Assembly: GCA_021822495.1 (NCBI GenBank)
Contig: JAKAQO010000001.1
Coordinates: forward strand, 514,808 to 578,807
Origin: a bacterium
GTDB taxonomy: Bacteria > Elusimicrobiota > Elusimicrobia > UBA1565 > UBA9628
Length of the DNA stretch: 64,000 nt
Direction of reading: 5' to 3'
The translations under genes and the position numbers were made by a program. The notes beneath the pieces were generated by a model, which searched no databases, was not told where the DNA came from, and saw nothing but the letters and a program-made list of their open reading frames with translations. Below, in pieces: positions 60,715-63,947 of the stretch. Position 1 is the first letter of the stretch; each line of letters begins with the position of its first letter.

Positions 60715-61122
60715 TTATTTTTTGCGCGGATACCTGGCCGTAATGGTCGAATGCATGCCGCCGCGAGAGGTAAAAGTTCCTTCCAATACGGCCCAGCGGG
60801 GACGGGCGGCCTTGACGATGTCGTCTAAAATTCGGTTGACCGCGTTTTCGTAGAAAATGCCCATATTTCGATAGGCAAGGAGATAGTATTTGAACGATTT
60901 GAGTTCAATGCACAGGCGGTCGGGAAGATAGGTCAGCGTCAATTTTCCAAAGTCAGGAAGTTTGGTTTTAGGGCACACCGACGTAAATTCCGGACATTCG
61001 ATTTTAATCTCATAGCCCTGATATTGATTGGGCCAGGTTTCCAGGGACGGCAAGACTTCGGATTTCCCTGAAAAGGCGAGATTTTCCCCGTAGCCATAGA
61101 CGGAAGTCTTGAGTTTAGGCAT
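60715..61122 (-). CDS. queF: NADPH-dependent 7-cyano-7-deazaguanine reductase QueF
   Basis: The 135-residue product has the type I QueF motif PEFTSVCPKTKLPDFG with Cys50 (forms the thioimide with preQ0) and Asp57, the NADPH-side stretch IELKSFKYYLLAYRNMGIFYENAVNRI, and GTFTSRGGMHSTI. It reduces preQ0 to preQ1 in queuosine synthesis. Its start overlaps the P-type ATPase stop by eight bases. No other queuosine gene or preQ1 riboswitch is seen in the window. Confidence 0.95.
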   Translation of the reverse strand: MPKLKTSVYGYGENLAFSGKSEVLPSLETWPNQYQGYEIKIECPEFTSVCPKTKLPDFGKLTLTYLPDRLCIELKSFKYYLLAYRNMGIFYENAVNRILDDIVKAARPRWAVLEGTFTSRGGMHSTITARYPRKK

Positions 61123-63136
61123 GAATTCTTCTCCTCAGTGAATTAATGATAATCGCGATAAGACCTAAAAACCCCGCGGAAACAGCCTCCGGCGCGGTTA
61201 AAAGAAGACCGTACTTTTCATACAAGAATCCGCACCCAATGGGAATCAGGAAAAGGCTGGGCAAAAAAACGAGAATGAGGTTTTGATGGATCGTCTCTTG
61301 AAGCGATTTTGTGCGCTCAAGAGCCTTTAAAACCTGGGATAAATCAGTGTTGGAGACGACGATATCGGAAGCCGTTTGAGCAATTGCGTTACCGGATTCC
61401 CAAGACAGCCCGATATCCGCCAAGGAAAGGGCCTCGGCGTCGTAAAAAGACGAAGCAAGAAGAGCCACTTTTTTCCCCTCGCTTTTGAGCCTTGAGATGA
61501 TGGCGGTTTTTTCTCCCGGCGGCGCTTCCGCGAACACATGTCTGATATCCACTCTTTCCGCCAGATGATGGGCGGATTGATTGCGGTCCCCGGAAACAAG
61601 AATGGGAGTAATCCCCATCTCTCTGATTTTGTTCACGGTTTCCTTTGCGTTCGGCCGCAAAGTATCCTTAATCACAAAGTACCCCAAAAGCCTTAAATCC
61701 CGGGCGATGCCGATAAATGAAATGATGTCTTCGGAAGACTCCGTTGGAATGGACGGAAGACTACAACCCGATTCCTTGAGCCAGTAAAGATTTCCCGCAC
61801 GGATTTCTCCCGCTTTTCCTTTCAATATAATTCCTTTACCGGGAAAACTTTCCAGGGAATCGGAAGCGGGAAGAGGTTTGGCTCCCAGATTTCTAACATA
61901 GAGAGTCACGGCTTGAGCGGACAGGTGCGGGGAATTCTGAAGAGCCGCCAAAGCCATGCTGAAAAATTCCTCTTTTGATTCTCCTATTAAGGTTGCGGAA
62001 ACAACTTCAAGGCTGCCTTCCGTTAAAACCCCGGTCTTATCGAATAGCAAGGTGTCTATGGTCCTTGCTCCGGAAATCAAATTAGTGTTAAGAACTTGAA
62101 TTCCTTCTTCTCTCATTTTGCGCAAACCGAAAAATATCGCGAGCGGCCTGGCTAAAGTCAGAGCTGGCGGACAGGAGAGTATCCACAGAGCGGCGAGTGA
62201 GGAAAGAGATAAAAACATCCGGTGAGAAGAGGCTTCCATGGCCCAAAAAATTGAAATTCCGGCGGCAGAAATGATGCTTAAAGCCGTAGCCAAGGTTGCG
62301 GCGTTATCAACGCAATTTTCTTTCTCAAATTTATTACCTGCATTTTTAATGATGGAAGATATCGCAAGAGAGAAAAGAGAGTCAGCCCCATTAGCCGTCA
62401 TTGAAAAAGAGGAGGATTGGACAAAAGATCCGGCGCAAATCCTGCATCCCTTGGTTTTTGGAGAAGGAGCCCTTCGGTCATTGAGGAGAAATTCATCTAT
62501 AATTGCGGAACTTTGAGCCATACCATCAACGGGAATCTCTTCGCCTTTTTTAACGACAATCTTATCCTGGGGCTGAACATCGGAACGGGAAATAAAAAAC
62601 TCATTTCCATCTTTTGACAAGCGGGCGGAACGGGGAATTTTACGACGAAGAGACTGGAGGTTTGTCCGGTAAAAATTTTTAAAATGAATATCCCAATACT
62701 CCCCAATGGTCACTAAGATGATCATCTCCGCGATCAAAGAGGCATAGAAATGACGGTAAACCTCGGAAATTGTATTGGGAGTGAAAACGGCGTAGGCCCC
62801 CAGAAAAAAAGCGGACCACAGGCTTAAAGAGACAAGCGTATTGAGCGCCCCTTTTCGGGCTCGAATCTCTTTTTTAAAGCCGCGAATGAAATGCCTTCCG
62901 CCAAATAAAATTAATAAAAGAGACAGAAGAATCTGGGTATAAAAAGATAAGTTAATATCTTTGCCCAAGAGGAGAATGAGAGTTAAAATGCAGGCGATAA
63001 GAAAGTTTTTAACTAGAAACTTCGCCGAAGACGGCTCTCCCTCCAAGGCAGACAATAAGTCAGAGGGAAGGGCGACAGGGTTCTCCGGCTTCAAACCCAC
63101 GGACGCGGTTTGAGGAAGTGAAATTTCGCTATCCAC
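61115..63136 (-). CDS. P-type (P1B-like) ATPase lacking several catalytic motifs
   Basis: The 673-residue product has the P1B membrane layout and the phosphorylation site DKTGV with Asp366, but key motifs are changed. The ion-binding CPC of P1B pumps reads CPP (322-324). The A-domain TGE loop reads NDR (219-221). The HP motif in the N-domain reads HL (404-405). The hinge GDGxND reads ASSFYD (561-566). There is no N-terminal metal-binding CxxC. It may still bind nucleotide and phosphorylate, but normal transport seems unlikely. It sits between a peptidase-like lipoprotein and QueF, with overlaps on both sides. Confidence 0.85.
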   Translation of the reverse strand: MDSEISLPQTASVGLKPENPVALPSDLLSALEGEPSSAKFLVKNFLIACILTLILLLGKDINLSFYTQILLSLLLILFGGRHFIRGFKKEIRARKGALNTLVSLSLWSAFFLGAYAVFTPNTISEVYRHFYASLIAEMIILVTIGEYWDIHFKNFYRTNLQSLRRKIPRSARLSKDGNEFFISRSDVQPQDKIVVKKGEEIPVDGMAQSSAIIDEFLLNDRRAPSPKTKGCRICAGSFVQSSSFSMTANGADSLFSLAISSIIKNAGNKFEKENCVDNAATLATALSIISAAGISIFWAMEASSHRMFLSLSSLAALWILSCPPALTLARPLAIFFGLRKMREEGIQVLNTNLISGARTIDTLLFDKTGVLTEGSLEVVSATLIGESKEEFFSMALAALQNSPHLSAQAVTLYVRNLGAKPLPASDSLESFPGKGIILKGKAGEIRAGNLYWLKESGCSLPSIPTESSEDIISFIGIARDLRLLGYFVIKDTLRPNAKETVNKIREMGITPILVSGDRNQSAHHLAERVDIRHVFAEAPPGEKTAIISRLKSEGKKVALLASSFYDAEALSLADIGLSWESGNAIAQTASDIVVSNTDLSQVLKALERTKSLQETIHQNLILVFLPSLFLIPIGCGFLYEKYGLLLTAPEAVSAGFLGLIAIIINSLRRRIHA

Positions 63137-63947
63137 GCTGTTGCCAGGCTTGATAGAAGGAATTAAGTCCCGACCATTTCCCAGTAAAGGCTTGGCCGAT
63201 GGCGGAACTTAAGTCTTCATTGCCTTGAAGATTGGCCAAGAATTGGCCGAACTCCGAATTTCCGGCTTGGGAAATCATGAAATTCATCATGGATTCGGCC
63301 TCGCAATCCCAGGCGCTTGAAGAAACGGATTCGTCATCCGGCGGCGCCATGTTGATGAGCTGAGACATCGGACTTGGGTTTTGACGCATTTGCGCTCTGA
63401 CCAGGGCGAAAAGATCTTGCTGATTTCCGGCAAGCTGCATGGTCTTCATTTCTTCATAGGCGGCGAGTCCATTTTTTACCCAAATCCAATCGGGATTAGG
63501 ACGATGGATGTAATTGGATAGAACCAATTGCGTGATCTCATAGGAAAGCCGGTTATTCAGCATGGGGTCAATATAGGTGTAGAGAGATCCCCGATAAATG
63601 ACTCCCCGGGAACCGGCAGGCTGACTCGTGGCCTTTTGAAATTGAGTTTGATTTGGATAGAGGATAATCTTCATTGGGCTTGAAGGCTGATAATTCATGA
63701 TTCCGGCGTCAATCATGAGACGGTTATAAAGATTTTCGGCGGTATTAGCGTATTGCGTCGCCGCGTTTTGGCCTATGGCCTCAACAAAAAAATGCTGGGT
63801 TTGGGCGTTGGAGGCGCCTTTAAGAGGGGCGAAGGAACTTCGAGTTAAGGCTTGCGGATGATAGACGGCCGAGCGCATTCCCGGATAGGGAACGCAACTG
63901 GACAAGAACATCGCCGCTAGAATTAAAAGAGGAGATAGTTTTTTCAT
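63129..63947 (-). CDS. Lipoprotein resembling an inactivated MA-clan peptidase
   Basis: The 272-residue product has a lipoprotein signal (LSSC, Cys18). The centre resembles gluzincin (peptidase MA) proteins: the helix that normally holds HExxH reads YEITQ (136-140), and the downstream Glu motif is kept (NGLAAYEE, 159-166). Both catalytic histidines are therefore missing, so it is probably a non-enzymatic relative. Ribosome site AGGA lies upstream. The start of the P-type ATPase gene overlaps its stop by eight bases. Confidence 0.65.
   Translation of the reverse strand: MKKLSPLLILAAMFLSSCVPYPGMRSAVYHPQALTRSSFAPLKGASNAQTQHFFVEAIGQNAATQYANTAENLYNRLMIDAGIMNYQPSSPMKIILYPNQTQFQKATSQPAGSRGVIYRGSLYTYIDPMLNNRLSYEITQLVLSNYIHRPNPDWIWVKNGLAAYEEMKTMQLAGNQQDLFALVRAQMRQNPSPMSQLINMAPPDDESVSSSAWDCEAESMMNFMISQAGNSEFGQFLANLQGNEDLSSAIGQAFTGKWSGLNSFYQAWQQRG

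Follow-up and report, generated by a model that had tools for sequence, protein, structure and literature searches.

An Elusimicrobiota MAG encodes a protein with the predicted fold of a copper-exporting P1B-type ATPase which, judged by its sequence, has lost the copper route as well as the dephosphorylation and Mg2+ chemistry of such a pump and is kept by selection despite these losses. The lost residues, the strict selection and at least three inactivations in relatives make it probable that the protein now has a non-pumping job in the window genus, the window being the whole stretch of 64,000 nucleotides that was analysed. The reading we favor, with a probability of roughly 60%, is that a former copper pump was supplanted by a second CopA and persists as a non-transporting, perhaps nucleotide-binding, docking pseudo-pump. 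Genomes, genera, families and loci are labelled G, g, f and L, respectively. The pump gene and its two neighbours are located as follows:

60715 to 61122, minus strand: QueF (NADPH-dependent 7-cyano-7-deazaguanine reductase), intact, with SVCPKT, ELKS and YEN
61115 to 63136, minus strand: pseudo-P1B-type ATPase, 673 amino acids, GTG start; layout TM1-2, A domain, TM3-4, P/N domains, TM5-6, HMA domain absent
63129 to 63947, minus strand: peptidase-MA-like lipoprotein, 272 amino acids, zinc site lost (HEMTH to YEITQ, WVNEG to WVKNG)

Homology and predicted fold of the pump

The open reading frame of the pump shares 8 nt with the upstream lipoprotein gene and 8 nt with the downstream queF gene. 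The N-terminal HMA metal-binding domain is missing from the protein, nor is there space for one, given the overlap with the lipoprotein gene. Two Pfam models scored well above their cut-offs (E1-E2_ATPase, 73 bits; HAD hydrolase, 64 bits), and the top NCBIfam model was TIGR01525 (heavy-metal P-type ATPase) with 307.6 bits, which is below the cut-off of 346.25, as expected for a divergent member. A sequence search of the PDB identified the protein as a P1B-type ATPase homologue with 25% identity to LpCopA. The AlphaFold model, which was built with 50 orthologues, contained the entire P1B fold (pLDDT 84, pTM 0.81), and its closest fold was that of LpCopA (3rfu; Z 39.9 over 632 residues). Homology and predicted fold together place the protein in the P-type ATPase superfamily, with A, N and P domains and a six-helix P1B core.

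Motifs lost and retained

The motifs were mapped by alignment to LpCopA and 49 canonical orthologues; the alignment itself was computed, and the functional residues are named as in LpCopA. Five sites carry the main changes (coordinates computed from the residue numbers):

62474 to 62482, minus strand: A-domain dephosphorylation loop, residues 219-221, TGE changed to NDR
62165 to 62173, minus strand: TM4 ion site, residues 322-324, CPC changed to CPP
62027 to 62041, minus strand: residues 366-370, DKTGT changed to DKTGV; Asp366 kept, Thr370 replaced by Val
61922 to 61933, minus strand: N-domain SEHP changed to SPHL, residues 402-405; His404 kept
61439 to 61456, minus strand: P-domain hinge GDGxND changed to ASSFYD, residues 561-566; Asp566 kept

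TGE was present in 49/49 aligned canonical sequences, whereas each of the five genomes of the window genus has NDR together with the phosphorylatable Asp366. Across the genus the hinge G(D/E)GxND reads (A/S)SSFYD, the final Asp being the sole survivor, and the Mg2+ acid D624 of the hinge is Ser, not Glu. Further replacements affect the copper-entry Met (M148 to L98), the YN copper ligands of TM5 (Y688/N689 to P626/S627) and the TM6 motif MxxSS, which has become GxxGL (M717/S721 to G655/L659). Retained are Lys367, Thr368, His404, GxG (433-435), SGD (515-517, including D517), Lys543 and Asp566. In the N domain, SEHP has thus lost its Glu and Pro, and His404 and GxG remain. The Glu five residues ahead of the SEHP His helps adenine binding in P1B pumps; it is Leu in the window genus.

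The initial annotation had described the TGE, CPC, HP and GDGxND motifs as missing and Asp366 as kept within DKTGV. Alignment against P1B pumps confirmed that the changes in TGE, CPC and GDGxND are genuine and free of register shifts, and that Asp366 is retained. The HP claim stood in part, as the Pro is lost, whereas His404 of the adenine site is retained. Misalignment or sequencing error as the cause of the losses was ruled out, since five genomes agree and the flanks are in register.

Selection on the pump gene

All five genomes of the window genus carry an intact frame with 74-82% identity and the same motif losses, so that the gene is not absent from relatives; two of them are represented by contigs JAJZCM010000016.1 and DAHZHT010000003.1, and a genome-wide contig scan for close relatives yielded nothing beyond these two genus members. 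Invariant within the genus are NDR, CPP, DKTGVLTEG, NSPH, SGDRNQS and SSFYDAEAL. The pump shows a dN/dS of 0.09-0.13 (mean 0.105; Nei-Gojobori, dS 0.5-1.5), which is about equal to or below the values of four genera with catalytic orthologues (0.10-0.21; g8 0.187, g11 0.174, g9 0.103, g10 0.206), with all these values being safe to an order of magnitude, because G+C differs between genera and dS is partly saturated. Within the protein, constraint is highest in the P and A domains and lowest in TM5-6, the part that carries the ion ligands. A raised dN/dS of 0.30-0.33 was found in the f2 genera g14 and g17. A recent pseudogene was ruled out by the dN/dS values and the unbroken frames, and the earlier proposal that selection has kept the gene is borne out by the five genomes, their shared losses, the low dN/dS and the full predicted fold.

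The same question arises for a conceivable slowly decaying relic whose frame is kept only through translational coupling between two needed genes: the 8-nt overlap with each neighbour, the raised dN/dS in g14 and g17 and the long stem branch of the window genus would suit it, but coupling protects the frame and not the amino acids, dN/dS is as in catalytic orthologues and the residues that replaced the lost motifs do not vary within the genus, which leaves this idea very improbable.

Canonical orthologues and parallel inactivation in the same slot

The order peptidase-MA lipoprotein, pump, QueF was found in about 55 loci of the families f1, f2, f3, f4, f10 and f14, and this synteny establishes the orthology of the window pump with canonical P1B-1 pumps. 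In most genera the slot of the trio is occupied by a canonical pump with HMA, TGE, CPC, DKTGT, SEHP, G(E/D)GFND, YN and MxxSS. No pump was detected in G221, G224 and G231, where contigs are fragmented. The GDGxND hinge is near-universal; otherwise canonical pumps of f1 and f3 have a GEGFND hinge (L032-L036, L054-L067, L072-L075), that is, an Asp-to-Glu exchange at the Mg2+ ligand. One orthologue (L059, genome G214) contains a single internal TAG and is either a recent pseudogene or affected by a sequence error. The queF gene is a constant class-wide neighbour of the copper pump and the lipoprotein peptidase in no fewer than five families, and we know of no functional link between them. A search for a preQ1 riboswitch or other Rfam RNAs in nine trio loci yielded two tRNAs only.

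Three further lineages contain degenerate pumps in this slot. In g5 (L069, L070), TGE is changed to HNS and DKTG to GKT(S/G), so that the catalytic Asp is Gly. In all eight f2 genomes (L037, L076-L082), TG is followed by a residue other than Glu and CPC is changed to (C/T/V)PW; in the f2 genera g14 and g13 the catalytic Asp is Gly or Asn. The orthologue of G005 (g2; L027, 6147-7445, minus strand) matches only residues 28-187, 271-349 and 579-670; in-frame deletions have removed the greater part of the A domain and almost the entire N and P domains, leaving the membrane helices and CPC in place. A tree of the flanking genes required four changes (bootstrap 3-4), and a shared origin of the losses in the window genus and g5 is compatible with the flanking-gene data (p-AU 0.42). 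These sequence comparisons indicate that the trio pump was inactivated at least three times, probably four, namely in the window genus, g5, f2 and G005.

To describe the losses, 94 alignment columns were taken as conserved, the threshold being 95% conservation or more among canonical orthologues. Of these, 31 are uniformly changed in the window genus, 32 in g5 and 10 in f2. Seven of the 94 are changed in each of the three pseudo lineages with full-length pumps, compared to 1.1 expected (0/10,000 permutations): M98 (entry Met), E221 (TGE), N565 (hinge), Y626 (TM5), M655 and S659 (TM6), and S661. In the window genus, 6/9 copper-path sites but 0/12 nucleotide/phosphate sites were lost (Fisher p=0.0015); f2 behaves as the window genus and g5 lost 5/9 versus 1/12, and because the site lists were picked after seeing the data, such p values are descriptive.

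The lipoprotein neighbour

Most lipoprotein orthologues keep the gluzincin zinc site HEMTH...NEG, whereas the window genus has YEITQ...KNG and thus lacks both HExxH and the distal Glu. Both dead proteins are constrained in this genus, with a dN/dS of 0.02-0.13 for pump and lipoprotein. Elsewhere, the zinc motif is intact beside the dead pumps of g5, f2 and G005 and has been broken independently in G222, G234 and G014/G233 beside canonical pumps (L064, L054, L033, L056), which indicates that one inactivation can occur without the other. These cases ruled out a general rule by which pump and lipoprotein peptidase decay together. The tie to the inactive lipoprotein proposed in the initial annotation is therefore supported by the class-wide gene order and by the inactivity of both proteins in the genus, but weakened by their uncoupled decay in other lineages.

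A second CopA

The source genome contains a second canonical CopA (L001, 490-2781, minus strand; G000 C4:696202-698490) with a CPMHPEV-type N-terminal segment instead of HMA. When a second CopA was defined as an unlinked canonical pump at least 40% identical to that of L001, it was found in 13/16 genomes with a pseudo-pump versus 3/29 genomes with a canonical trio pump, a correlation which is a lead whose significance is unreachable once phylogeny is counted, as only 2-4 independent contrasts are left. A heme-copper oxidase does not separate the two groups, since nearly all genomes of both have one.

Comparison with known systems

The closest known systems are the P1B-1 pumps of the CopA type, such as LpCopA (PDB 3rfu) and ATP7B, whose canonical members include the trio orthologues of the sister genera. 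The window pump shares with them the fold, the domain order, the Asp of DKTG, the His of SEHP, GxG, SGD and the second hinge Asp. In contrast to them, it is devoid of HMA, TGE, the second Cys of CPC, YN, MxxSS and the entry Met and has the hinge SSFYD, which argues against a working CopA.

Pseudo-enzymes are well studied among kinases and proteases. Among P-type pumps, almost no such cases are described in the open-access literature, where we found no bacterial P-type pseudo-ATPase; the terms 'pseudoenzyme' and 'P-type ATPase', with or without copper, retrieved no paper. The degenerate P-type ATPases known to us are all eukaryotic. One of them is human TMEM94, a P-type ATPase relative which, like the window pump, lacks the dephosphorylation motif (TGES). 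Its 2025 structure contained no bound nucleotide or Mg2+, and it was argued not to be a P-type ATPase (PMC12134183); a 2026 paper on ERMA argues for an ATPase function (PMC13322241). TMEM94 differs from the window pump in being eukaryotic, not of the P1B type and confined to one lineage, whereas the slot described here has seen several parallel bacterial inactivations. In PfGC-beta, a degenerate P-type ATPase domain is kept in a conserved apicomplexan fusion of P4-ATPase and guanylate cyclase (PMC6592433). This protein differs in its P4 type, its fusion to a cyclase, the lack of a copper ancestry and the fact that no parallel loss has been shown.

Possible function of the pseudo-pump

With its losses, the window pump would neither transport copper nor complete an ATP/phosphorylation cycle, and the designation as a pseudo-pump is well supported by the motif losses under constraint. 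Its predecessor would have been a copper-exporting P1B-1 ATPase in an ancient class-wide trio. Copper export may then have passed to the unlinked canonical second CopA, and the old pump would have been retained as a membrane-anchored pseudo-ATPase. Most likely it would dock to partner proteins, either constitutively or depending on nucleotide, and might in this way scaffold or regulate the adjoining lipoprotein or the remaining CopA. Docking is likelier than pumping given that the fold is kept together with the greater part of the nucleotide pocket (His404, GxG, K367/T368, D517, K543).

A role as nucleotide-responsive scaffold or regulator is plausible, and nucleotide sensing, which had been suggested at the outset together with metal sensing, is possible from the N-domain His, GxG and the P-domain Asp and Lys, although the Glu before the His is lost. 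Against this reading, the glycines and the His may have been kept to maintain the fold, and the loss of the nucleotide domains in G005 shows that nucleotide binding is dispensable in some lineage. Metal sensing is unlikely, because the protein retains none of HMA, the entry Met, the second CPC Cys, YN or MxxSS.

The strongest competitor, to which we assign a rather low but appreciable probability, is a pure structural scaffold, that is, a folded membrane partner of the lipoprotein in which the residues of the nucleotide pocket survive as fold support. The class-wide gene order with the lipoprotein, the constraint on both dead proteins in the window genus, the tightest constraint lying on the P and A domains and the ability of G005 to do without nucleotide domains are all consistent with it. 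However, pump and peptidase decay are uncorrelated in other lineages, no purely structural role is evident for His404 and GxG, QueF is an equally close neighbour, and gene order alone proves no interaction.

An active transporter with altered chemistry, in which another substrate is moved and other residues replace TGE and GDGxND, appears unlikely. The window genus retains Asp366, K367, T368, D517, K543 and D566, the predicted fold is intact and the canonical f1 and f3 relatives tolerate GEGFND in place of GDGxND. Yet the Glu of TGE, invariant in canonical orthologues, is Arg and D624 is Ser; constraint is weakest in TM5-6, which bears the ion ligands; and the parallel lineages have lost the catalytic Asp (Gly in g5, Gly or Asn in part of f2) or the catalytic part (G005).

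Beyond the window genus, we tentatively consider, as an idea that is doubtful in this general form, a recurrent switch by which the P1B-1 pumps of this slot may have become nucleotide-binding membrane regulators three to four times in the class after arrival of a second CopA. If true, it would define a class of P-type pseudo-ATPases undescribed for bacteria in the literature searched. Annotation as a P-type ATPase does not imply transport. The sister genera with canonical pumps at the same locus form a natural before/after series, including excised catalytic domains, and the role of a pump that no longer pumps becomes testable.
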